31,334 nucleotides of DNA, taken from IMG/VR virus record IMGVR_UViG_3300031601_000015, positions 1-31,334 of that record. One strand, 5' to 3'. Below the pieces are notes generated by a model that made no database searches, was not told where the DNA came from, and saw only the letters and a program-made list of their open reading frames with translations. Below, piece by piece: positions 1-21,576 of the stretch (positions within the stretch are counted from its first letter, which is position 1; each line of letters starts with the position of its first letter). The position numbers and the translations under genes are program-made. Source of the DNA: a virus.

Positions 1-317
1 TCTCGTTTTTTACCGCCTTTTGCAACATAAAAATTCATTTCAGGTTTGTTTCGTGCGACCACATCTTCAATAATAAATGCATAATCAGGGCCAAACACAC
101 CCTGAAGCACATCAGTTACTAATTGTTCAATGACTTCTTTTGTTTTAGTTTGACTCAAAATGCCAACTACAGACATAATTTCTCTTGCATCTTCTTGATC
201 TGCTTTTCGCTTTCTATTAGAAACCAAATCTTCAATAAGTTGATCAGCATTGGCTCGAAGGATAACTTTTTGAGCTTTATGCTTTGCAAGGTACTTTTCG
301 TATATTGCTAAATCCAT
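1..317 (-). CDS. C-terminal half of a split SbcC/Rad50-like ATPase (partial, runs off the left edge)
   Basis: The visible 105 residues begin with about 70 residues of charged helix that looks like coiled coil, followed by a segment around VFGPDYAFIIEDVVARNKPE. This resembles the stretch just before the signature motif and Walker B in SbcC/Rad50-type ATPases. No Walker A is present, and the start at 317 lies one base after the stop of the preceding gene, with a weak GAAAG ribosome site. The gene at 1949-3313 supplies an N-terminal SbcC half that stops just after its zinc hook, so the two could form one ATPase in trans. The signature and Walker B motifs would lie outside the window, so this reading is inference. 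Confidence 0.6.
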   Translation of the reverse strand, partial: MDLAIYEKYLAKHKAQKVILRANADQLIEDLVSNRKRKADQEDAREIMSVVGILSQTKTKEVIEQLVTDVLQGVFGPDYAFIIEDVVARNKPEMNFYVAKGGKKR

Positions 318-318
318 A

Positions 319-540
319 TCAATCTTTCAGATAGTAAACCATAATTGTAGTTCCAACAGGCATATGAGAAGGATCTAGAGTGAGAACTTGAGCAGGAATC
401 ATCTTTATTGCTTCTTCTGTAGGAAAGTGAAAAGTGTCCCAATTGGGAAGAACATCAGTTTTCATAATTGTTGCACTCCCTACAAGTACTTTACCTTTTG
501 ATAAGTGCATCCATTGACGCAATTGTTTTAAGACTCGCAT
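319..540 (-). CDS. Hypothetical protein, 73 aa
   Basis: This small gene lies between a coiled-coil protein and the putative SbcC C-terminal half. Its start at 540 is preceded by AGGAG seven bases upstream, so the 50-base overlap with the previous gene looks genuine. The protein starts basic and ends with beta-rich hydrophobic patches (QVLTLDPSHMPVGTTIMVYY). I see no known motif, signal peptide or membrane helix. Its position within the recombination genes suggests a role with the nuclease complex, but nothing in the sequence proves that. Confidence 0.7.
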   Translation of the reverse strand: MRVLKQLRQWMHLSKGKVLVGSATIMKTDVLPNWDTFHFPTEEAIKMIPAQVLTLDPSHMPVGTTIMVYYLKD

Positions 541-727
541 CTGTAATCTCCTGTAGTTGTGTTTGAAGTGCTTTTGCTTCTATTCTAGCTGCTTCTATGG
601 AATCCATTCCCATATCCTTTAATTGCAGAAGAATTTGATCTCGAGCACCTTCTAGTTTTGTTTGTTTATCTACAACTTCTTTAAGCATAGATACACGTGA
701 TTTAAGTTGTTCTACAACATCAATCAT
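491..727 (-). CDS. Small coiled-coil protein, 78 aa
   Basis: Almost the whole protein is charged alpha-helix with heptad-like hydrophobic spacing (for example VEQLKSRVSMLKEVVDKQ), so it is probably a coiled coil. AGAGG precedes the start by six bases, and the start overlaps the end of the sbcD-like gene by eight bases, implying translational coupling. It lies between the two SbcC halves and could bind their coiled coils. That is only a suggestion from position and fold. Confidence 0.75.
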   Translation of the reverse strand: MIDVVEQLKSRVSMLKEVVDKQTKLEGARDQILLQLKDMGMDSIEAARIEAKALQTQLQEITDASLKTIASMDALIKR

Positions 728-1664
728 TGGTAACCTCTTCTAATACATGATCAATTATATCTTTTACTGACTGGGAAGTTTTTTTCTCTAAAAGAACTGT
801 TTCCAGAACTTCTTTCCAAGCCACTTGTGATCCTTGACTCTTTTGTAAACGTTCAATAAATTGAAGGACACCATCTTCTTCCATTTTAATATCACGTCTA
901 AGATCAAATACATCGTCTATTGTACCCACCTTCAGCTCAATAATTTCAAAGTTATTAGTCTCAGTATCAAATATTATTACTGCGGGTTTAAGTTCAAGAT
1001 CAAATTTACCAATCGTTTTTCTAATAATAGCCCCTGGATTGATAATTGTTCGATTATTACATATTTCAGTAAATCTAAAATGGTAATCACCGCACACCAC
1101 AAGATCATAGTCTGGAAACTTACGCAAGAAATTTCGTGGACCTTCAAGTACTTGACCAGGCCACAGAGGACGATCACCAATCATTCTATGAGTTACAAGG
1201 ATGTTAAAACTTTCTGTATTTTCTACATCAGGAGGTTCTTCACCAAATGGCGCACCATATAGATTAATTTGTTGTCCTTTGTCTTCATTTAACATAACAG
1301 GAGCCGGTCCCAGCAGAGTTATCAGCTCTGCTGCTTCCAGCACAGCCAAGGGGCTGTTGGGCAGTGTGGTGGCACTATGCCCACTAATGTCATGTTGACC
1401 ATAAACCACAAAGGGTTTAAGGGCGTATGGTTTGTAGTTAAACCACTCTGTTTGTAATAATTTAATTATTGCAATTTTCACACGATTGGCAACTGTAGGT
1501 GTATCAAAAAAATCACCAGGTTGAATAACTGCTGTGCACTCATGATCTCTAAAAATTTGAAATGCTTGGCACAATTTACCAAGATGTGTTTGAAAATAAT
1601 CATCTTTCCTACGAATAGGAGAATAATTTGTTAAATGGTTATCCCCAAGAAGGCCAATTTTCAT
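720..1664 (-). CDS. SbcD/Mre11-like metallophosphoesterase nuclease
   Basis: This 314-residue protein has the calcineurin-like phosphoesterase motifs in order: GDNH (7-10), GDFFD (50-54), GQHD (89-92), VTHR (157-160), GDYH (192-195) and NPGA (209-212). Proteins of this family are the Mn-dependent nuclease subunit of SbcCD/Mre11-Rad50, which processes DNA ends and hairpins. The usual GNHD motif reads GQHD; I recall this variant in other phage members, so it need not be inactivating. AAGGA precedes the start by nine bases. It sits between the two proposed SbcC halves, which supports a phage SbcCD complex for recombination or replication-end processing. Confidence 0.9.
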   Translation of the reverse strand: MKIGLLGDNHLTNYSPIRRKDDYFQTHLGKLCQAFQIFRDHECTAVIQPGDFFDTPTVANRVKIAIIKLLQTEWFNYKPYALKPFVVYGQHDISGHSATTLPNSPLAVLEAAELITLLGPAPVMLNEDKGQQINLYGAPFGEEPPDVENTESFNILVTHRMIGDRPLWPGQVLEGPRNFLRKFPDYDLVVCGDYHFRFTEICNNRTIINPGAIIRKTIGKFDLELKPAVIIFDTETNNFEIIELKVGTIDDVFDLRRDIKMEEDGVLQFIERLQKSQGSQVAWKEVLETVLLEKKTSQSVKDIIDHVLEEVTND

Positions 1665-1956
1665 GTTGCCATTCCTTTAATTCATTACGAACTATAATAT
1701 CAGCTGTTAGGCCACTTATACCTGCAAGCATTCTCCAATGTTCTCTATCATTAAGCACTTCTAATGTTTTTATATGTATTAAATCTGCCATATGATTTGC
1801 TAAGGATTCAATAGCGGTATCAGATAAAATATTTAAACGAATAATATCATCACCAAACAAGTATAACATGGCATCATCAAATTCAAATCCATCATCTTCA
1901 AATATTAATAGTCCTTCCAGCTCTGCTGGAGTCAATAGCAGATATGTTCTAACCAT
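1639..1956 (-). CDS. Hypothetical acidic protein, 105 aa
   Basis: The start at 1956 is chosen because AAGGA lies seven bases upstream and the ATG overlaps the stop of the SbcC N-terminal gene by eight bases; a longer reading starting at 2055 would overlap that gene by over 100 bases. The protein is acidic (for example LIFEDDGFEFDDAMLYLFGD) and ends in a tryptophan-rich tail (WQHENWPSWG). No family is recognised. Lying directly between sbcC and sbcD, it may be an accessory part of the nuclease complex. Confidence 0.7.
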   Translation of the reverse strand: MVRTYLLLTPAELEGLLIFEDDGFEFDDAMLYLFGDDIIRLNILSDTAIESLANHMADLIHIKTLEVLNDREHWRMLAGISGLTADIIVRNELKEWQHENWPSWG

Positions 1957-3313
1957 TTTTAGATCCTTCAATGAGTTGGTCTTTTTCTTTATCAGTAAGC
2001 TTATGTCCACATGTGGGACAATCAACAAGTTGAGCTGTAAAGACATCAACATCATTTTGATACTTCTGCTTTGTTTTTTCTAATACAGCTAATTGCGTTT
2101 GTTTGTTAAATCCTTCTGAATGTACTTGAGACATCAGACACTTTTTCTGTTTCAATGTATTATACTCATCTGCTTGTTGTTCGGCGAGAGAAATTAGAGC
2201 AGTAATTTCTTTAGCATCAATTGTATTATTTATTGTTGTATTCCATTTTTCAATCAGAGGATTGATTAATCCAATAAGTTCAAATAGTTCATTAATCATT
2301 TGAATGTGATCTTTTGCGATATTCATTTTTTGTGTAAGGACTTTTACATCTACTACAAATTGTTTTATGCATTCATCATATGCATCAATTGGAAGTTGAA
2401 AACGTTGAGTATGTTGGGCTTGATGCATGTATTTAACAGCTAATTCTTCTGCTACATACATTTTCTGAACAAAATCTGTTGTAATTACAAAATCTTTTAC
2501 ACACTCATCATAGTCTGCAACTCGCTGCTGAAAAAATCCTGTTATCAAATTTATTTGCAAATATTTATCTGTTTGTTCTTCTGCTAATCGAATTGTTGCT
2601 TCAATATTATCAGGAATAGCATCAAGTTGTTCCTGAACTTGATTATATTCAGACATTTTGAATTCTAGTTGTTGTAGTTTTGATGCAGCTATACTCTGCT
2701 GTTTTTTATAGCTTTGTGTTTGAACCAAGAGCACCTGGAAATGATCCAGTTGTAATTCCTCCATGGCCAGCAATGCTTGCTCGTTTTCTGCTTGATCACA
2801 CTCCAAGCTGTTAATGATACCGTTAGATCGTTTGATCCTAGTAGCAAGATTACTAGTAGCTTCATCAATTATATTGAGTCCCATCAATTCACGAATATAA
2901 CGAGCAGTCTCTCCAGGAGATTTCACTACAAGAAAATAAGGTTCCTTTTGTTCTTGGAAGTTAATATCTTCCATAACCAATGCTTGTGTAATCACTTCAG
3001 GTGGATTAACACCAAAAGATGTAAGTTCATCATCATTCAATTTGTAATATCCATTGTCTTTTCGATTACGTCCACGTTCAATAATTGTTTCTCCATCAGC
3101 ATCTTTAAGGATTAGACGAACAAAACAATCATCCATATCATCATGAATAAAGCCATTACTTAAAGGACGATTAGCTTTGACCCATTGAAGAGCACGCCAC
3201 AAACAAGATTTTCCTGCATCTCCCGAACCAATTATTACATTGACTCCAGGATGATAATTTAGTGTTGAATTTGTATGTGCTTGAAAATTATGAAGCACTT
3301 GTTGTTTGATCAT
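1949..3313 (-). CDS. N-terminal half of an SbcC/Rad50-like ATPase, ending at the zinc hook
   Basis: The 454-residue protein begins like Rad50/SbcC, with Walker A GSGDAGKS at 29-36 and a Q-loop-like region near NFQEQKEPYFLV. A long coiled coil follows, and a zinc-hook CPTC lies at about 432-435. It stops about 20 residues after the hook, with no return coiled coil, signature motif or Walker B. A normal SbcC is around 1000 residues, so this is half a protein. GTGGAG precedes ATG 3313 at good spacing, and the ATGA overlap with the RuvC-like gene favours this start over a TTG seven codons upstream. The matching C-terminal half is probably the gene at 1-317. Zn-linked dimerisation by this hook would be expected. 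Confidence 0.88.
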   Translation of the reverse strand: MIKQQVLHNFQAHTNSTLNYHPGVNVIIGSGDAGKSCLWRALQWVKANRPLSNGFIHDDMDDCFVRLILKDADGETIIERGRNRKDNGYYKLNDDELTSFGVNPPEVITQALVMEDINFQEQKEPYFLVVKSPGETARYIRELMGLNIIDEATSNLATRIKRSNGIINSLECDQAENEQALLAMEELQLDHFQVLLVQTQSYKKQQSIAASKLQQLEFKMSEYNQVQEQLDAIPDNIEATIRLAEEQTDKYLQINLITGFFQQRVADYDECVKDFVITTDFVQKMYVAEELAVKYMHQAQHTQRFQLPIDAYDECIKQFVVDVKVLTQKMNIAKDHIQMINELFELIGLINPLIEKWNTTINNTIDAKEITALISLAEQQADEYNTLKQKKCLMSQVHSEGFNKQTQLAVLEKTKQKYQNDVDVFTAQLVDCPTCGHKLTDKEKDQLIEGSKNG

Positions 3314-4080
3314 AGTGGATCTCCACTGGGACAATATTCTATGAAAGTACGATGCATCAAATCTACAGGATAATATGTTGAAATACGTCTGAAGATTTTC
3401 TGTTTAATCTTATCTAATTCATCAATTATAATTCTGCCATCTCTTAATTGTAGCTCCATGTAAAGCATATGTGCCAAAAACCACGCATCAATGATATCAG
3501 TACCAGGACCATCAACATCTATGAATATACCTGCTTTTTTTACAGGTTTGATAATAGAATCAGGAACAAGAAAACCTTTAGTTCTTGCAGCATCAAGCAT
3601 CTGTATTTTTTTTGCATTTCCAAGATTTGCACCAAATTGTTTAAGTGTTGAAGGATCATGAACCCGAATTTTTGCCCCCATTTCAAGTAGTTTATGTTTC
3701 AATGTTCCAGTTAACTCTGCAATTTGACAGATAGATGTGGTCTGACTTTGATATGAGTATCCTTCAATTGAAATGAAAAAATCATCTTTTTCATATCCTA
3801 TCACAGAATAGTCAAACAGAATTGATTTTATAAGACATTGAATACGTTCCACCGCGGTATGAATTCGTCGTTGTGTAAATGGTGCTTTCTGTTCATTTTC
3901 TTTTTTAATAGGCGATTGTATGCCGGTATACTTAATTTCAGAAATGGTATCCACCACCCACTTTGGAGTTGTGTAACTTGACCAGGAACCAATGAGGTTT
4001 CCAGTATTAGAAGAGATACAGGTTATTCCCCAGTGTTCCAATGAAATGTCAAATCCGAAAAGTAAATATTCTTTATTCAT
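3310..4080 (-). CDS. RuvC-like Holliday junction resolvase
   Basis: This 256-residue protein has an RNase H-fold nuclease pattern: D11 in GFDISLEHWG, E106 in ISIEGYSY, a PSTLKQFGANLGNAKK segment (143-158) and D195/D198 in GTDIIDAW. These match the four acidic metal ligands of the RuvC family. Phage members cleave four-way junctions or branched DNA during recombination and before packaging. It overlaps the SbcC N-terminal gene by four bases (ATGA) and follows queC after nine bases, so it is co-transcribed with both. It is longer than E. coli RuvC (about 173 aa), with extra sequence at 40-100 and at the C terminus. Confidence 0.82.
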   Translation of the reverse strand: MNKEYLLFGFDISLEHWGITCISSNTGNLIGSWSSYTTPKWVVDTISEIKYTGIQSPIKKENEQKAPFTQRRIHTAVERIQCLIKSILFDYSVIGYEKDDFFISIEGYSYQSQTTSICQIAELTGTLKHKLLEMGAKIRVHDPSTLKQFGANLGNAKKIQMLDAARTKGFLVPDSIIKPVKKAGIFIDVDGPGTDIIDAWFLAHMLYMELQLRDGRIIIDELDKIKQKIFRRISTYYPVDLMHRTFIEYCPSGDPL

Positions 4081-4089
4081 TATGATTCT

Positions 4090-4857
4090 CTATTCTTTTT
4101 CTTTAAACGTAACAGGGACTCCATGAGAGGAAATTGTTTTTGTGTAAATTATTACAGCTTGTTTCCACTCTTCTTTTGTAAGAAAAGGATCAGGATATCC
4201 AGTACTAAGAAAAGCACCAGTTCTTTCTTGACAAGTTCCACATTTTAAGCAGGGGCGGTCGCCTTGTCCATTGTAACAAGTCCATGTATGTTCATATGGA
4301 ACATCATGCTCCATACCCCATATAGCAATCTTTGCTTTATTCCAATTGCCAAATGGTGAAAGAATTTGAACACCATTGTATGTACCATTTTGGATAGCAT
4401 TACCCATGGCAATCGTAAATACTTCTCTACAATCTGGATAGAGATTATGATCGCCAGCATGATTTGCAAGGATGATAACATCAAATTCTCTAGATTCTGC
4501 AAAACCTGCGGCCAATGCCAACATGATACCATTCCGAAATGGAACCACTGTACTCTTCATAGATTCTTCTGCATAGTGGCCTTCAGGAATTTCCCCTTGA
4601 TCCTGTAGTAGATTGGACTTTAAGAAGGATTCCTGTTTTCCAACTATCCAACACTCCATAGGAAGATTGTATGTATAGAAGGGAATATCCAAATTTTTAC
4701 AGATCCAGGCACCAGCGGCACGTTCCTTTTCATTGTGCTTGCTTCCGTAGCTAAAGGAAATCCCAGTAACATCATACAACATATTTAATGCATAATAAAC
4801 TGCTGTGACACTATCCATACCACCTGATAACAGTATTAATGCTTTTTTCTTTTTCAT
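4090..4857 (-). CDS. queC: QueC, 7-cyano-7-deazaguanine (preQ0) synthase
   Basis: QueC uses ATP and ammonia to convert 7-carboxy-7-deazaguanine into preQ0. The 255-residue protein has the PP-loop SGGMDS (11-16), VPFRNG (105-110), YPDCRE (140-145) and a C-terminal zinc site from C194, C203, C206 and C209. AAGGATAAAC precedes the ATG. It lies downstream of recA, separated by a 12-bp hairpin, and away from queE, folE and queF, which are 10-17 kb upstream in the same block. It supplies the intermediate for QueF and DpdA. Confidence 0.95.
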   Translation of the reverse strand: MKKKKALILLSGGMDSVTAVYYALNMLYDVTGISFSYGSKHNEKERAAGAWICKNLDIPFYTYNLPMECWIVGKQESFLKSNLLQDQGEIPEGHYAEESMKSTVVPFRNGIMLALAAGFAESREFDVIILANHAGDHNLYPDCREVFTIAMGNAIQNGTYNGVQILSPFGNWNKAKIAIWGMEHDVPYEHTWTCYNGQGDRPCLKCGTCQERTGAFLSTGYPDPFLTKEEWKQAVIIYTKTISSHGVPVTFKEKE

Positions 4858-7520: not shown

Positions 7521-8471
7521 CTAAAATTTTGGTAAATCAAAACACGCTCTGGCAATAAGGGCACCAAGCTGTGCCTTGCCACTATAATATACACTTGATG
7601 AAAATAGACGCAACAGGTAGGTCATCTCCTCAGCCTCATCTTGATCCTGTGCTCCTACTAATTTTTTCCACATAAAGCTCATAATACTCCTTCGGATCCG
7701 TTCTGGATCATCTGAAAGAGAATTGTATGCTTGAAGAATGGTTTGCCACTTAGCCTTCCGCAGCTTAGGAAGCATGCATAAGTTTTTACAAATATCTATG
7801 ATGTCCACATCTTCTTCTGTTCCTGAAATCAGAAGTTCAAAAGCTTCTTCTAAGTCCATGTCTTTTGTCTGATCCAAACTAACAAGAGCATTCCTCGGAG
7901 AGCCTTCACACATTTGTGAAATGCCTTCCAACAAGTCAGGATCAACAGTAAAATCAGCTATTTTACAAGCTCGTTCTAGAACCTTCATAATATCCTTCCG
8001 ACCCAAAGGATTCACATCATACTCTGTCACACGACTCCTGATCGTTTTGATCATGTGATCTGGTTCTGTTGTGCAAATGATGATGTAGCAGTAGTCCGGA
8101 CAATCTTCTAACGGTTTCAGCAGACCCTCCTGAGCCGTAGCTGTTAGCTGATGTGACTCATCTAGCAGAATGACACGAGACTTTCCAAAAGGCCGTAACC
8201 TTGTCATCTTTTCAACTTCTCGAATGGATTCAATACCACGAGTATTCGCAGCATTTGTTTCCATAAAGTCCATATCCATATTACATTCTAATAGGTTCGC
8301 TAAGATCCTTGCAATAGTAGTCTTACCACAACCAGGAGGTCCTTTAAGCATCAGAGCATGTGGTCTGTGCTGTGGAGCCATCTGCATAAATTTCTTCAGT
8401 GAAGAGATCGTAGAAATGTTGCCTACAATATCTTCTAGTGTTTGCGGTCGCACATTTTGATAAAGTCCCAT
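7521..8471 (-). CDS. AAA+ clamp loader subunit (DnaX/RFC small-subunit-like)
   Basis: The 316-residue protein starts with LYQNVRPQTLEDIVGN, typical of DnaX and RFC loaders. Walker A GPPGCGKT is at 44-51, Walker B ILLDESH at 101-107, a sensor 1 region around ICTTEP, and a sensor 2-like GSPRNAL. The SRC motif is changed to SRV (IRSRVTEY), and no DnaX zinc module is seen. It loads the sliding clamp on primed DNA using ATP. It begins at a TAATG overlap with the polymerase gene and is preceded by GGAGG; the clamp lies just beyond the polymerase. No separate delta-like subunit is visible, so it may act as a homo-oligomer or with host subunits. Confidence 0.9.
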   Translation of the reverse strand: MGLYQNVRPQTLEDIVGNISTISSLKKFMQMAPQHRPHALMLKGPPGCGKTTIARILANLLECNMDMDFMETNAANTRGIESIREVEKMTRLRPFGKSRVILLDESHQLTATAQEGLLKPLEDCPDYCYIIICTTEPDHMIKTIRSRVTEYDVNPLGRKDIMKVLERACKIADFTVDPDLLEGISQMCEGSPRNALVSLDQTKDMDLEEAFELLISGTEEDVDIIDICKNLCMLPKLRKAKWQTILQAYNSLSDDPERIRRSIMSFMWKKLVGAQDQDEAEEMTYLLRLFSSSVYYSGKAQLGALIARACFDLPKF

Positions 8472-11149
8472 TATACCTCCACCTCCAAAGGTGACATATC
8501 ATACCAGTTTGATCCAATTTCCCACTCAACAGGAGTAGGAACGGATTCCCAATCAAAATTAGATACATTGCAAATTGATTCTACAATCTCAATGAGTTCT
8601 GGTATTTCTTCCGGCACAGCATCAAAGGTGCCGCTATCATGAACTTCTAATATGAGCATTGATTTTAATCCTCTTCGCATCACTTCTTTATCAATCAAAC
8701 GAAGTTCATTCAGAAACAAGCAGAAACCTGTCCCCTGTGTGGGATTATTATATAGCTGGAAAAGTGAAAGTGGACCACGCCTTTTAAATCCAGGCAAAGC
8801 TTCAAAGTATCCATTATCATTATATTGTTCTACAACCTCTAATTGCCAACGACGCACTTCTTTATATGTTTCCCAAAACTCTTTCTGTACCTTGATGATA
8901 TGATCCAAGCTGATTTCAGCTGCTTGAAAGTCTTCATACCTGGCAACAGCTTTAGGAGCTGAACCATAAAAACTTGCAAACACAAAACCATTTTTTCCAC
9001 CATACCGAAAGATTCCTTGTTGTTTAGGTGTAAGTTCATCCCAGTTGTACTTACTACCAGCATACAACTTTTTCGTCCAAATCCTATGAAAATCAATACC
9101 CTCAATTAATTGTTTCATAAGGATAGGATCTTTGGATTCCATCGCGATGATTCGCACTTCTAGACTGGATTTATCAAATTCTAAAAAGATGTTGCCATCA
9201 CTTGGAATGACAGCTTTCCGAAGTAGCTTCTGAGTTGGATCGTGTTTTGGAATGTTTTGTACGTTAGGATCAATGGCTGAAGAACGATATGTTTTCGCAA
9301 CATTCAATGTGAATGTGGGATGAATTCGACCATTTTTATCCATAGCCTTTTCAAATCCAGCAATTCTTTTTAATGTACCATTAGAACCTTCGACCTTTCT
9401 ATAAAGAATTAAAGCTTCAATAAACACTCGCACATCTTCAGACACTGGATTTTTTAAAATATCAGGAAATACAGCTTGACTAGCAGCAGGCTTACCACCA
9501 GCAGTCTTTACAGTTACAAGTTGACCCATATACAATTTTCCACCTTCAGAATTTTTTGTCATTGCATCTTCACCGTACAATACTTTTCCAATATCAGAAG
9601 AAGAAGTCCAAGAGAATGGTTTCTTTTTAATAGCTTCTCTATCCTCATTAAATTCTATTACAGCAGGTAAACCTGTAATTGTAACAATAGCAGCATCTCT
9701 GATGATTGTATTCTTTATTCGCATTTCTTCAAGCAAGCTCGCATCCATTTGAATGCCTCTGTGTTTCATACGAGCAAGGACACCAGCACCTTTCATATAG
9801 TTCTCACTGAATTCTATTTCTCTGCCTTTGAGCATCTCTTGTTGTACTTCATATGCCCAAATGGGATATCGAACATCAAAGCAGTTGTAATTCCAGATCT
9901 CCTCCAAAGGAACCTCAGCCATTCGTGCTTTCATCTTCTTACCAATAGTGTCATAAGTATGACCACAGAGCCTGTAAGCGATGAGCTTGAGTCCAGTTGT
10001 GTTGTCTCTACAATTTCTTATATGAGCACCAATCATGGTATCATAAGCAAAGTTGATAGGCTCCTGATTAAACATCTCCATGGACCATGGTCCTTCCATG
10101 TTAAAATTCTGTACAAGTTTTGGAGCTGAAGATGCAAGGAATGCTTCAAATGCATCCCATATACGTGTACGATCCCCAAAGGACCAATAGTGATCATCCG
10201 TTCCTGGAGTGATGTAGTCTAACGGAATACAATGAGCGTACTCCTTCGAATTAGTAATAGCGACTGTAATTAGTCTAGCTCCTTTTTCAAATGGTGAAAG
10301 ACATGTCGTTTCAAAGTCAAAGGACACAAGTTTCTTTGATGTACTATACATTTCAAGAAGCTTTACTGCATTTTGTGCATTTGTAATAAGTGAATTGCCT
10401 TTTTTTGTAAGCTTTGCAGGAAGAGGTTCTCCTAGCTTGTCTATGATGTATTCCATGTCTTCTACAAAGACAGCTGTAGGATCCAATGTTTCTTCTTTGG
10501 CCGATTGGATCTCATTTGGATCCATGATACAACCTACCCAGCACCCAAACCGATGATCTGGAAATACAAGACCATGAACGGAAGTAGGTGTGAAGATGTT
10601 TCCCGTGAACGGAACTACACAAGCAATGGACTTAATAGCATACTTACCAAGACAGATAATCAGAGATGGTTTCATCTCCTCAATCATTTTGAACAGTGTG
10701 GGCTGACAACATTTAATATGTACCTCTTTAGGAGGTGTGGTTGTTCCTTTAGCATTTGATGGGGGCTGGCATCTGACAGCAGAAATACGACTACAATCTA
10801 CATCCATATCAATCCCGAAAGATTTTAACGTCCGGCGGAGTAAGTAACCACCAGCATCAGTCAAAATTTTACCTTGTCGATCACCCGCCTTCCCTGGAGT
10901 ACCATTGATGATCATAATACCAGCTTCACCTTTCCCGTAGAGTTCAATTTTGGGAGTGTGACAGGTATCACATAATTTACAACGAGCACAATCATACTGC
11001 GTGGTAGAGGGAAGGGGACTTTTCTTACCAGTGGACTTATCACCAATATTTCTACGGGATTTGGTTTTCTTTGGATTTTTAATTTCCTCCGCTGCCAACT
11101 TATTTTGCTGGATAGTATAAGGATCTAAGAAGAATGATTTCTGTCTCAT
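8471..11149 (-). CDS. Family A DNA polymerase with N-terminal UDG-like domain and 3'-5' exonuclease
   Basis: This 892-residue fusion has three parts. Residues 50-230 resemble family 4/5 uracil-DNA glycosylases (cysteines 54, 57, 60, 63, 127, 147/148; GTPGKAGDRQGK; RCQPPSNAKG; SLIICLGKYA). Residues 270-440 are a DEDDy exonuclease (FDFETT 277-282, QNFNMEGPW, YNCFD 421-425). The C-terminal half is a family A polymerase: RSSAIDPNVQNIP, motif A FDKSSLEVR (658-666), motif B FRYGGKNGFVFASFYG (714-729) and motif C VHDSG (836-840). SPO1-like phages have comparable fusions. The UDG part lacks a clear HPA-type motif, so it may not excise uracil. It overlaps the clamp and loader genes by TAATG at both ends. 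Confidence 0.93.
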   Translation of the reverse strand: MRQKSFFLDPYTIQQNKLAAEEIKNPKKTKSRRNIGDKSTGKKSPLPSTTQYDCARCKLCDTCHTPKIELYGKGEAGIMIINGTPGKAGDRQGKILTDAGGYLLRRTLKSFGIDMDVDCSRISAVRCQPPSNAKGTTTPPKEVHIKCCQPTLFKMIEEMKPSLIICLGKYAIKSIACVVPFTGNIFTPTSVHGLVFPDHRFGCWVGCIMDPNEIQSAKEETLDPTAVFVEDMEYIIDKLGEPLPAKLTKKGNSLITNAQNAVKLLEMYSTSKKLVSFDFETTCLSPFEKGARLITVAITNSKEYAHCIPLDYITPGTDDHYWSFGDRTRIWDAFEAFLASSAPKLVQNFNMEGPWSMEMFNQEPINFAYDTMIGAHIRNCRDNTTGLKLIAYRLCGHTYDTIGKKMKARMAEVPLEEIWNYNCFDVRYPIWAYEVQQEMLKGREIEFSENYMKGAGVLARMKHRGIQMDASLLEEMRIKNTIIRDAAIVTITGLPAVIEFNEDREAIKKKPFSWTSSSDIGKVLYGEDAMTKNSEGGKLYMGQLVTVKTAGGKPAASQAVFPDILKNPVSEDVRVFIEALILYRKVEGSNGTLKRIAGFEKAMDKNGRIHPTFTLNVAKTYRSSAIDPNVQNIPKHDPTQKLLRKAVIPSDGNIFLEFDKSSLEVRIIAMESKDPILMKQLIEGIDFHRIWTKKLYAGSKYNWDELTPKQQGIFRYGGKNGFVFASFYGSAPKAVARYEDFQAAEISLDHIIKVQKEFWETYKEVRRWQLEVVEQYNDNGYFEALPGFKRRGPLSLFQLYNNPTQGTGFCLFLNELRLIDKEVMRRGLKSMLILEVHDSGTFDAVPEEIPELIEIVESICNVSNFDWESVPTPVEWEIGSNWYDMSPLEVEV

Positions 11150-12204: not shown

Positions 12205-14556
12205 CTAGAAGAATGATTTATTTGTTCTAAAAACTTTCTTTTCTTTGATTGAGCCCTCTTCTAATAACTTTTGATAATAGTAGATATTAACCTTAAACCT
12301 TTCAGTAATATCTTTTCCTAATTGCTCCATGTCTACGCCTACTTCAGCCAAGTAAATGTTTACAGCTTCAATCTCTTTTGGTGACAAGGCTAATGTATAA
12401 TGTGCATGTGTAGATGGTTTGAGTTTACTAAGTTCAGAAACAGAAACATGTAATGGTTGACAAGTATAGTCAAATACACCTTGCCCACTAATATATCTTG
12501 GAACAATTACTTTTCCATAGGCTGCGAGTTTCAGCCATGTGGTTGAGTTATGTACCAATAGTCCATTTGCAACAAACTTTTGACCATCGGGAACTTCTAA
12601 ATCATAAACAGTAGACTGTTCCGGGGCAATTGTTGTGATCTTCATTACCTTTAAAAAGGAATGATTGTTTTCTTTTTCTGATCGAGTCCCCCTATTTTCA
12701 GAAATAGAAGAAATGCTTTCTTGTAATTTTATATTTTTTCTTCCGGGCAAAAATCCAATCTTTTCTTGAAAAAGTTTTAAACTTGAAAGATTACCAATGC
12801 TTAAATTATGACATGGGCGAACTCCCCATTCCTCCTCTGTTTTTATCTTCCTTGAATGTGTACTTTCGTAAATTCTAACATCAATTCCTAAACTTTGTAG
12901 AAGGAAAAACACCCCATAAAGAAGTTTTCCACTAGTAGTGGAGCACTCAATATCATTACAACATGTTCCATCGCCACTAAAATATCCTCGAAGAAAAGAA
13001 CCCAAGTTTTCTTTTGAAAGATCAAACACCCACCAGGGGACTTCTTTAGTATGAGAATGCCCTACAAGTCCCAAAACTTTCATTGTTCTCATTAACTTAG
13101 AAGAAGAAATACTTGCATCCACCTCATTATTATCAATTCGAAGTTTGCAGTTGTATCGTTTTGCAATATCCTGCAAAAGTTGCATATGTTCTGAATCATT
13201 TGCAGCGGAGATTTGAACCGCAGCATTATTATCTAAAGAGGAATAACTTCCATCGGCTATCCACAAACCACAAAATTCTAAAAATTTGGAATCAAATTTA
13301 ATTTTTGAAGGTAATTTACGCATACACGTTGTACTTGGATGGGATTCAGATGCATACGTTTTTCTATCAATATTCACTATTTGTTCTTGTACATTGTTTG
13401 TCTGCTCATTTGTATTATAGTCTACACCAACACAATGGTTTCCCAGTTTCACTTGAGAAGTTGGAAGACATGATAATCCAGAATCATCATGTACAAACAA
13501 ACCATGATCGCCAGTAAGTGTTAATTGTCTTCCTGTTTTTGTCTTCACTCGATATTTAGTTTTAGACACACTATGGCGAATAACTTTAGAAACAGGTTTC
13601 CAAGATCCATTTCCAACATCATCTGTAACAAAAGTTTCCACATCTTTCAAAGTTTTGTATTCATGTCCAGAAGATTGTTTCTTTTTCTTTCCTTCTGTAC
13701 AATTAAACAATCCTTGAATGGTTTCTACTCGAATTCGTCCCAATTCTCTAATAAGTAAATGTGATTCGCCTACCACGGAATCGACGCTGTACCAGGAATA
13801 TCTGTGCATCAGCGAGAAGCTGGTCACTGCAAATCCATGCACCTTGATGTCCGGATTAACTGCTTGAATATACTCAAAGGCTTTATTGCCCAATCCGTTT
13901 ACGAATTGTTTAAGAGTAATACCTCCAGCAACACCACCAATACCGATGTACTCATAATTATCCACCATCTTACGAAAATGGCAAAAATCTTCTCCGTAAT
14001 GGAATACAGGAACCGGTACAAGACCATTTGCTTCCATTTTGTGCATGTTCTTCCAAGAGCCTTCAGCATTGTACACAATGTCCAAGTTTGCGTATCCATC
14101 GAAGTGATCTTTATACTTATGGCAGAATACAATGTAGTCATCAAGATACGCCTGAACTTCAGGAGTGTCGTTGAATGAAAAATCCGTGAAAGATTGGACA
14201 GCACCTTTGTTCTTTGAGGCATACGAAATCTGTTGATTTCTGTCAAGTGTATCTTCAAACTCCATTTCACTAAATTCAATAGTACCATCTTTATTTGCAC
14301 GTTTTTCAGAGTCAACTCCTGTATCATAGGATGTTCCAACTAATCCAACCGCATGGTTTAACAAACTATGTGCTCCTGAATCCATGAACAATTCAACCTC
14401 AGGCACATCATCCAACACTTTTTGAATTTGTTTTTTTTTCCAAAATGTTTCTAAACTTGTAGCACGCCCATCAAGAACCGCATTCAATCCAAGTCCCCGG
14501 GCACTAGATTTTCCAGGTGTCAAAATATTGGCAAGATGTATTTTTTGTGTACTCAT
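12205..14556 (-). CDS. dpdA: DpdA-like DNA 7-deazaguanine transglycosylase interrupted by an intein
   Basis: DpdA exchanges guanine in DNA for a 7-deazaguanine base and is related to tRNA-guanine transglycosylase (TGT). Extein motifs are FMDSGAHSLL (57-66; the aspartate matches TGT's first catalytic Asp), YIGIGGVAGG (203-212) and HGFAVTSF (240-247). SVDS begins at 257 and, after splicing, reads SVDSTTWLKLAAYG, like the DpdA form of TGT's nucleophile region. The 783-residue precursor contains an intein at 260-670, so the mature enzyme is 372 residues. The start overlaps the upstream stop by TAATG with AGAGGA before it. QueF, QueC, QueE and FolE in the same block supply the base. Confidence 0.92.
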   Translation of the reverse strand: MSTQKIHLANILTPGKSSARGLGLNAVLDGRATSLETFWKKKQIQKVLDDVPEVELFMDSGAHSLLNHAVGLVGTSYDTGVDSEKRANKDGTIEFSEMEFEDTLDRNQQISYASKNKGAVQSFTDFSFNDTPEVQAYLDDYIVFCHKYKDHFDGYANLDIVYNAEGSWKNMHKMEANGLVPVPVFHYGEDFCHFRKMVDNYEYIGIGGVAGGITLKQFVNGLGNKAFEYIQAVNPDIKVHGFAVTSFSLMHRYSWYSVDSVVGESHLLIRELGRIRVETIQGLFNCTEGKKKKQSSGHEYKTLKDVETFVTDDVGNGSWKPVSKVIRHSVSKTKYRVKTKTGRQLTLTGDHGLFVHDDSGLSCLPTSQVKLGNHCVGVDYNTNEQTNNVQEQIVNIDRKTYASESHPSTTCMRKLPSKIKFDSKFLEFCGLWIADGSYSSLDNNAAVQISAANDSEHMQLLQDIAKRYNCKLRIDNNEVDASISSSKLMRTMKVLGLVGHSHTKEVPWWVFDLSKENLGSFLRGYFSGDGTCCNDIECSTTSGKLLYGVFFLLQSLGIDVRIYESTHSRKIKTEEEWGVRPCHNLSIGNLSSLKLFQEKIGFLPGRKNIKLQESISSISENRGTRSEKENNHSFLKVMKITTIAPEQSTVYDLEVPDGQKFVANGLLVHNSTTWLKLAAYGKVIVPRYISGQGVFDYTCQPLHVSVSELSKLKPSTHAHYTLALSPKEIEAVNIYLAEVGVDMEQLGKDITERFKVNIYYYQKLLEEGSIKEKKVFRTNKSFF
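12547..13779 (-). mobile_element. Intein with LAGLIDADG homing endonuclease inside dpdA
   Basis: The 411-residue intein runs from Ser260 to Asn670 of the precursor. Block A is SVVGESHL, block B is LTLTGDHGLFV (345-355, with the conserved His351), and the C-terminal splice block is YDLEVPDGQKFVANGLLVHN (651-670), followed by Ser671 as the +1 nucleophile. Two LAGLIDADG-type motifs, FLEFCGLWIADG (425-436) and LGSFLRGYFSGDG (518-530), give a homing endonuclease. All splicing residues are present, so it should self-excise. Ser rather than Cys is the first residue, a permitted variant. The endonuclease acidic residues (D435, D529) are intact, so mobility may persist. Confidence 0.92.
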
Positions 14557-14737: not shown

Positions 14738-15223
14738 CTAAATAGTAACTGGTCCATATATATGTGGTGCCGTTAAACGCCAATGATTTAAAATTCTCAT
14801 ATATAGTTCATGGTCCGGCATATTCGGAAGAATTACAGTTGGATTAATGCTGATTCCACCACGGGGCATAAAGTCTCCCCGGACAATCAGAACTTTAGGC
14901 TTCATGACGTCATATAGTCGCCGAGCAATTCGGTTGACTACATCTTCATGAAACTCACCATGATTCCGGAAGCTGAATAGGAAGAGCTTTAATGCTTTCG
15001 ACTCAACCATTTTCAGGTCTGGGATGTATGCAATGCTAAGTTTAGCATAATCAGGTTGATGCGTAATGGGACATGTGCTAGAAAACTCCGGACACTCAAA
15101 TTCAACCACGTAATCATTCTCTGTGTGTTGGTTGTCAAAGGTTTCCAGAACTGCATCATCTGGATTGGTTGGATACTTCGTTGCACCTTGTCCTAACAGG
15201 CTCAAATTTTCTGTATCACTCAT
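14738..15223 (-). CDS. queF: QueF, preQ0 reductase (7-cyano-7-deazaguanine to preQ1)
   Basis: QueF reduces the nitrile of preQ0 to the aminomethyl of preQ1 using NADPH. The 161-residue protein has the nucleophile Cys51 in STCPITHQPD, Asp58, the NADPH-binding QueF motif ESKALKLF (74-81) and GEFHE (89-93). This is the short unimodal form, about the usual length. Because the NADPH motif is complete it should be a true reductase, not a QueF-like amidinotransferase. Its presence beside dpdA predicts preQ1 rather than preQ0 in the DNA. The start overlaps the stop of the 49-residue gene upstream. Confidence 0.92.
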   Translation of the reverse strand: MSDTENLSLLGQGATKYPTNPDDAVLETFDNQHTENDYVVEFECPEFSSTCPITHQPDYAKLSIAYIPDLKMVESKALKLFLFSFRNHGEFHEDVVNRIARRLYDVMKPKVLIVRGDFMPRGGISINPTVILPNMPDHELYMRILNHWRLTAPHIYGPVTI

Positions 15224-20301: not shown

Positions 20302-20859
20302 CTATGCATCAAGAAATTCTTGTTTTAAGCCAAGATCTGTAAGTAATGCTCCGCGAATGGATGATGTTACAGTCATTGCTCCTGTGGATTGGATTCCACG
20401 ACAGGTCATACATTCATGTTCTGCTGTCAAAACAACGCCAACACCCTTAGGTTCTAAATATTCCATCAGTGTATCAGCCACTTGATCAGTTAGATGTTCT
20501 TGTACTTGAAGACGATGAGCAAAACATTCAAGTATACGAGCTAACTTAGATAACCCTGTGACTTTACCACTGGGAAGATATCCAATTTTTGCAGTACCTC
20601 TGAAAGAAACCAGATGATGAGCACAATGGCTGATAAAAGGAATATCCTTTACAATCACCAAGCTATCATACTTATCAACAAATTCAACATTCAGTATATC
20701 TTTGGGATCTTGACCATATCCCGCACCAAATGTTTTGATCCAAGCTTTGGCCACACGTTCAGGTGTGCGACGGAGATGTTGATCCTCCAAATCCAAACCC
20801 ATGCCTTCAATAAAATTCGCAATTGCTTTTTCCATTCGTGGTTGGTCGTACTGATGCAT
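20302..20859 (-). CDS. folE: FolE, GTP cyclohydrolase I
   Basis: FolE converts GTP to dihydroneopterin triphosphate, the first step of the 7-deazaguanine pathway. The protein has RTPERVAKAW (31-40), the zinc/catalytic region SHCAHHL (77-83), GKVTGLSKLAR (98-108), RLQVQEHLT (116-124) and HECMTCRG (148-155). Of two adjacent ATGs I prefer 20859, since GGAG is only two bases from the one at 20862. The common CEHH is CAHH here; the zinc ligands C79, H82 and C150 remain. The gene follows queE after nine bases, giving the first two pathway genes together. Confidence 0.95.
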   Translation of the reverse strand: MHQYDQPRMEKAIANFIEGMGLDLEDQHLRRTPERVAKAWIKTFGAGYGQDPKDILNVEFVDKYDSLVIVKDIPFISHCAHHLVSFRGTAKIGYLPSGKVTGLSKLARILECFAHRLQVQEHLTDQVADTLMEYLEPKGVGVVLTAEHECMTCRGIQSTGAMTVTSSIRGALLTDLGLKQEFLDA

Positions 20860-20868
20860 CATAACTCC

Positions 20869-21576
20869 TTAACGTTCTTCTATTGCATTTGGCCACAATA
20901 CTTTGTGGATTTGTAAACTGTATTGAATGTCCCACATCTCATCTTCAATCAACAACTCTGCCAATTGAGCAGCCCAAGTATACTTTGAAAGCTCTACATA
21001 ATCCTCATCACTAAGTGCGGGAGACACAGCTATCTGTGCTTTCATCATATGAAATTGACAGTCAAGAAGTGTTTTCATGTAGGTATACTCATCCTCAGAA
21101 GAAAGAACGAATTTAACAACATCTTCTTTTCTAAGTATCAAAAAGTTTTGAATGGACATTCGATGCTCCATTCCACTGGATGGCATCTTATAGTCCATCA
21201 CAATTCTGACATTAGGATTGTTTGCGATTTCAGAAGGAACCGCATAAGATCCATTTGTTTCAATTGATATCATTTGCTTAGGATATATACCAATGCCCAG
21301 TTGTTTGATTAAAGAAACAACTCCAATTATTTGTTCAAAGGGCTCCCCACCTGTAATTGTAATCTTTGGACTCCGCCGGAGCTTGTCAACAAGCACAGCA
21401 ATCGCCGTCTCTTTACCATCACACTGTTGTAGTGCATATTTGGTATCGCAATAGGTACACCTCAGGTTACACCCAGCAAGCCTAAGGAACGTGGTTAATT
21501 GGCCGGCACCTCTAAAGCCATTAACTTCTCCATCAATAGCCCTAAAAATGGATTTGACGAACAATGTGTTTCGCAT
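20869..21576 (-). CDS. queE: QueE, 7-carboxy-7-deazaguanine synthase (radical SAM)
   Basis: QueE makes 7-carboxy-7-deazaguanine from 6-carboxytetrahydropterin by radical SAM chemistry. The 235-residue protein has CNLRCTYC (Cys36, Cys40, Cys43 bind the 4Fe-4S cluster), TGGEPF (75-80) and the C-terminal LQIHKVLWPN typical of QueE. Its start overlaps the HNH stop by TAATG, with GGGGA ahead. Its substrate is made by QueD, for which I find no gene in this window. Confidence 0.95.
   Translation of the reverse strand: MRNTLFVKSIFRAIDGEVNGFRGAGQLTTFLRLAGCNLRCTYCDTKYALQQCDGKETAIAVLVDKLRRSPKITITGGEPFEQIIGVVSLIKQLGIGIYPKQMISIETNGSYAVPSEIANNPNVRIVMDYKMPSSGMEHRMSIQNFLILRKEDVVKFVLSSEDEYTYMKTLLDCQFHMMKAQIAVSPALSDEDYVELSKYTWAAQLAELLIEDEMWDIQYSLQIHKVLWPNAIEER

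Follow-up and report, generated by a model that had tools for sequence, protein, structure and literature searches.

Organization of the Split SbcC/Rad50 Locus

The window, a linear virus record of 31,334 bases analyzed over its whole length, carries on its minus strand a set of genes in which the two halves of an SbcC/Rad50-type ATPase are encoded separately (Table 1). In the direction of transcription these comprise the N-half, a 105-aa open reading frame (ORF), SbcD, a 78-aa ORF, an ORF of at most 73 aa, and a left gene that runs into the contig edge. The sequence-only reading had likewise placed sbcD and three small genes between the halves.

Table 1. Features of the split set in the window, numbered from the first base of the window.
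Feature	Position	Strand	Remarks
SbcC/Rad50 N-half, 454 aa	1949..3313	(-)	lobe I with Walker A, Q-loop region, coiled arm, CPTC hook
Two tandem 44-residue coil units in the N-half	2324..2587	(-)	about residues 243-286 and 287-330
105-aa ORF between N-half and SbcD	1639..1956	(-)	start chosen by eye; outside the conserved set
SbcD/Mre11-like metallophosphoesterase	720..1664	(-)	GQHD and GDYH at two metal-ligand motifs
CC, two-helix coiled-coil protein, 78 aa	491..727	(-)	fourth member of the conserved set
ORF of up to 73 aa between CC and C-half	319..540	(-)	probably starts further in
SbcC/Rad50 C-half, first 105 aa	3..317	(-)	coil helix and start of lobe II; cut by contig edge

The N-half starts at an ATG at position 3313, with an alternative TTG at 3334 that would yield 461 aa. 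Its Walker A motif reads GSGDAGKS and is followed by a long helical region, with CPTC at residues 432-435 and a stop codon 19 residues past the second cysteine. Among Pfam models AAA_23 scores over its cut-off (5.9e-8) and Rad50_zn_hook below it (0.0011), while the NCBIfam Rad50 model PRK03918 covers residues 2-449 (5.3e-11, below the family cut-off) and no match to TIGR00618, the full-length SbcC, is listed up to E 0.01. ORF and domain matches thus bear out the earlier description of a Walker A, a coiled coil and a CPTC hook ending in a stop. The CxxC hook typical of Rad50 and SbcC, a putative zinc binder, is therefore present; the defining single polypeptide with both lobes, both arms and a mid-chain hook is not, the C-half being separately encoded. 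PHROG 16465 also matches this gene.

The window SbcD matches Metallophos_2 over the Pfam cut-off and phrog_100 (SbcD). The GNHD and GHxH motifs of Mre11 hold metal ligands; here they read GQHD and GDYH. The GQHD/GDxH combination is shared by the window with 33 relatives of the same gene order (N-half, SbcD, CC, C-half; hereafter N-D-CC-C) and one of another order, other loci reading GNHD and GHxH. Counted within the viral clade, window included, 34 loci carry it. The two changes mostly co-occur, and an intermediate GNHD/GDxH state is found in 14 loci. Of the small genes, the 105-aa ORF has no Pfam match and CC shares 8 bases with the end of sbcD. CC also gave low matches to eukaryotic coils, which were discounted as noise from coiled-coil sequence.

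Identity of the Left Gene

The left gene opens with an ATG at 317 and its reading frame is still open at the contig edge. It had been described as a coil followed by what looked like the segment preceding the ABC signature, and comparison with relatives sustains this: the gene can be aligned over its full length with residues 1-104 of their complete C-halves, with 37-40% identity over about 104 aa to those of loci L098, L124, L129, and L188 (40% for L188 and L098), and a C-half profile from which it was left out gives it 76 bits (E 1.2e-21). PHROG 15167 matches it as well; a low Pfam match to CRM1_C was dismissed as coil noise. The four complete C-halves are 202-217 aa long. Examination of these closest homologues for the motifs expected to the left finds a GGG-type signature, a Walker B (ILDE, FFDE), and an H-loop (VTH), followed by a stop. 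Because they would lie beyond the contig edge, the window's own signature and Walker B are predicted from such relatives.

Recurrence of the Break after the Hook

A tblastn search identified Bacillus phage vB_BboS-125, in which gp32 (471 aa) terminates in GGICPLCEQTHKGGGC immediately followed by a stop, gp35 (211 aa) carries RGGGIADVVSLALRLA, PLFLDE, and LITHN, and the stretch immediately downstream holds an sbcD that the annotation does not list (NC_048735 22423-23403). Searching with gp35 reached LR745208, Magritte, Tunturi_5, and Mvi-JY20, in each of which a separate gene of 205-229 aa encodes the C-half. The N-halves of Mvi-JY20 (347 aa) and LR745208 (455 aa) have a terminal CxxC, with sbcD in the same neighborhood; in Magritte and Tunturi_5 the parts of the set are far apart across the genome. 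The Magritte N-half (OR553905 gp155; L100 3839-4891) has no CxxC at all, and CC is matched weakly (E 1.9e-5) at 127234-127470, in the vicinity of gp245, so that this phage has a hook-less version of the split set. A separate full-length SbcC, which would speak against a two-chain ATPase, was sought through AAA_23. Within the 31,334 bases of the window, itself a fragment of the phage genome, there is a single AAA_23 gene. The N-half is the sole AAA_23 match in vB_BboS-125, Mvi-JY20, and Magritte. In LR745208 and in Tunturi_5 a single additional match, a weak one, turns up; the Tunturi_5 gene concerned bears the annotation DnaC-like helicase loader.

As single-protein queries against viral contigs the window N-half and SbcD gave no match, and alignments were required. 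N-half alignments were used to scan viral contigs twice and bacterial genomes once, which yielded about 180 loci; in the C-half alignments no segment was conserved well enough to serve as a search pattern. The scan patterns cover only the region of Walker A plus one motif close to it and therefore do not select for the split, although confirmation by tblastn against split N-halves does favor the split family. CxxC occurs in 134 of 138 distinct complete N genes, and 133 of the 138 end within 35 aa after it. A hook at the end of one chain, noted earlier for the window alone, is thus a recurrent feature. A mid-chain hook is seen in just one N-like gene, which encodes the single-chain SbcC of phage JWF.

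Taken alone, the window would permit a decaying or frame-broken sbcC, with a post-hook stop and an sbcD insertion separating the halves in this phage only, and one C-half copy in Peptoniphilus obesi (G005) is itself interrupted. Recurrence in 133 of 138 distinct genes indicates that the break is more than chance, and its identical position across phages and bacteria, together with the intact starts, stops, and conserved motifs of both halves, makes decay a most improbable explanation.

All four parts (N-half, SbcD, C-half, and CC) are present in 108 loci, in the orders N-D-CC-C (70), N-CC-C-D (29), and D-N-CC-C (9), with CC upstream of C in every one. The CC profile used was seeded from 25 loci, the other loci being independent of the seed. 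Both the 78-aa CC gene as a member of the conserved set and the wide spread of the split architecture were overlooked by the sequence-only reading. Among 110 distinct C-halves, 101 have the GGG-type signature and 107 the Walker B. Gene order largely tracks the SbcD tree, in which the window falls within a mostly viral clade, apart from a Bacillota clade. In L098 (N-D-CC-C) D overlaps CC and CC overlaps C; such overlaps, there and in the window, are compatible with stoichiometric expression. No CC-C or N-CC fusion was seen.

Structural Comparison of the Two Halves

Against solved structures, the N-half profile finds its best matches in the N chains of archaeal Rad50 (3aux, 8e-19; 1f2t_A, 2.9e-12), and it also matches the Rad50 zinc-hook structures 1l8d and 6zff (about 1e-6). 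The C-half profile matches Rad50 C chains (3qkr_B, 2.5e-17; 1ii8_B; 1f2t_B). The AlphaFold model of the N-half is of low overall confidence (pTM 0.33), with an uncertain coil; its lobe I (residues 1-126) resembles the heads of Rad50, SMC, and RecF (Z 11-15) and matches 1f2u_A/C. The L098 C-half is modeled at pLDDT 92.5 as a single helix (residues 2-77) followed by lobe II, which fits 1f2u_D with a TM of 0.77 by target length; the C-half model also matches 1f2u_B and 1f2t_B. Since profiles and models both match separate chains, each natural half corresponds to one chain of the Rad50 catalytic-domain crystals.

Bacterial Copies and a Natural Fusion

The split set is also found on bacterial chromosomes. 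In nine Tissierellia loci the order D-N-CC-C follows recA in a core neighborhood with ftsK and pgsA, and in six of the nine rny comes next; carriers include Peptoniphilus, Lagierella, Mediannikoviicoccus, Soehngenia, Miniphocaeibacter, and Gallicola. The C-half profile is sharply selective, scores above 140 bits falling almost entirely in frames of about 155-280 aa and SMC- or RecN-sized frames scoring below 54. It detects a split C-half in 49 of 299 genomes in a phylum sample and 67 of 120 in an order sample; 39 of the latter 120 have full-length SbcC (TIGR00618). At the thresholds used, 65 order-sample genomes have the split form only, 37 the full-length form only, 2 both, and 16 neither. 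Co-occurrence in 2 genomes, against 22 expected (Fisher p 6e-16, uncorrected for phylogeny), is consistent with one version of SbcC replacing the other, and the split set seems to be the sole SbcCD of many Tissierellales.

Weak matches of the N-half to GajA, LmuB, and mad3 models, through the shared AAA lobe, might suggest a phage defense or counter-defense ATPase (Lamassu-, Gabija-, or mad-like) in place of an SbcCD. This is very improbable, given that Rad50 provides the best solved matches, that the partner is an SbcD-like phosphoesterase, that the neighbors are UvsX-like, RuvC-like, polymerase, clamp, and clamp-loader genes, and that the bacterial copies adjoin recA and appear to take the place of SbcC.

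An SbcCD identity is further suggested by an 825-kb bacterial contig (L203, 4652-6754, minus strand), in which SbcD, N lobe, and C lobe form one 700-aa chain with no coil, no hook, and no adjacent CC gene. This protein, next to a gene recognized by eye as AddB-like, appears from its sequence to be a coil-less minimal Mre11-Rad50. That D, N, and C are fused naturally is strong indirect evidence that the separate parts act as one complex.

Proposed Assembly and the Role of CC

The set very probably encodes a phage Mre11-Rad50 (SbcCD) complex in which Rad50 is built from two, perhaps three, polypeptides. The N-half would supply lobe I (Walker A and Q-loop), the ascending arm, and the terminal CxxC hook, and the C-half a coil helix of about 60 residues and lobe II (signature, Walker B, and H-loop). 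The N and C lobes would pair non-covalently to rebuild each ABC head, and two rebuilt heads would dimerize on ATP. SbcD (Mre11), a predicted nuclease, may bind as in other MR complexes and process DNA ends during phage recombination. The earlier proposal that a complete ATPase is assembled from two polypeptides is thus supported by the motifs of the N-half and by those of complete C-halves in relatives; physical assembly and ATPase and nuclease activity are predicted, the conserved gene set, the D-N-C fusion, and the exclusion of full-length SbcC being indirect pointers to a complex. On the other side stand the truncated C-half of the window, the low confidence of the N-coil model, the dispersed parts in Magritte and Tunturi_5, and the hook-less N-half of Magritte.

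The hook-to-head length of N is quantized. For the viral orders the values lie near 170, 217, 262, and 306 residues; the Bacillota orders show values near 272, 320, and 366. Self-alignment reveals tandem units of 44-47 residues in several N coils; the window is among the clearest, its coil scoring 68 against a shuffle mean of 23.5, a value reached by 0 of 200 shuffles. CC (about 78 aa) and the C helix (about 60 residues) are constant in length whatever the N arm (r = -0.06 for CC against arm), and hence would not pair with its variable part; pairing with a second N subunit would match variable arm lengths automatically.

In the shortest N variants the N arm measures about 160-170 residues and CC, C helix, and tail add up to about 150, and because these values are close CC is favored, if only narrowly, as a return strand over an independent adaptor. 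In the latter case N and C would still form a complex, and CC would stand outside the arm as an adaptor or regulator, for instance a hook cap or an SbcD- or recombinase-binding factor. Its own start, its two-helix pattern with a central turn, and its indifference to arm length all accord with such a role, which is a serious contender, although CC invariably precedes C and often overlaps it, is absent beside the coil-less fusion, and was not found in the single-chain JWF phage.

A return-strand role leads to a three-polypeptide Rad50, offered tentatively as the likeliest arm model and to be regarded as rather doubtful in its full form. CC and the C helix might pair with the proximal N arm as the missing return strand, limited to that region; the distal N arm, varying by whole units of 44-47 residues, might pair symmetrically with the same part of a second N; and the two CxxC ends, both free chain ends, might clasp one zinc at the arm tip. 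Such a ring, if real, could open or exchange subunits at its non-covalent joints.

Relation to Known Systems

Archaeal Mre11-Rad50 (Pyrococcus, Methanocaldococcus) likewise has both lobes, a CxxC hook, and an Mre11-type partner. Its Rad50 is one continuous chain, whereas the split set is cut after the hook with the CC gene between, and most of the return arm is missing from both halves. In the engineered two-chain Rad50 catalytic domain (1f2t, 1f2u, 1ii8, 3qkr), N and C lobes are also separate chains of one ATPase head; those constructs lack arm and hook, while the split set is natural, has both, and includes CC. Bacterial SbcCD (TIGR00618/TIGR00619) and single-chain phage SbcC (JWF gp43), with which T4 gp46/47 is grouped, follow the same two-component nuclease logic. 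Single-chain SbcC, however, has 560-1,200 aa and a mid-chain hook, and in place of its usual SGGE/SGGQ signature the split set reads GGGxxD.

The component families are themselves known: PHROGs 16465 (exonuclease), 15167 (ATPase), and 18563 (no assigned function) correspond to the N, C, and CC parts, and the catalogue draws no link among the three. What appears to be new is the post-hook division, the unvarying CC partner, the arm built of modules, and the replacement of SbcC on chromosomes, no description of a split SbcC/Rad50 or of these features having been found in the literature searched, whose coverage excluded most subscription papers. Three orphan phage families would thereby be tied to one machine, with CC proposed as a new conserved MR component. 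In the usual picture, Rad50 runs as a continuous chain from head to hook and back, relaying signals between ATP state and hook. A naturally split Rad50 makes the need for a covalent head-hook path directly testable, and provides a two-chain protein for biochemistry without engineering.

Other Genes of the Window

Several further genes lie on the minus strand of the window. QueC, QueF-like, GTP cyclohydrolase I, and radical SAM genes occur at 4090-4857, 14738-15223, 20302-20862, and 20869-21576, the radical SAM gene being called QueE-like by position; together they make up a 7-deazaguanine pathway, possibly for DNA modification. An intein (splicing domain plus LAGLIDADG) lies within a 783-aa protein at 12205-14556, the host parts of which have no Pfam match and by eye resemble phage tRNA-guanine-transglycosylase-like (DpdA-type) proteins. 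At 8471-11149 a uracil-DNA-glycosylase-like domain is fused to a family A DNA polymerase with a 3'-5' exonuclease domain.
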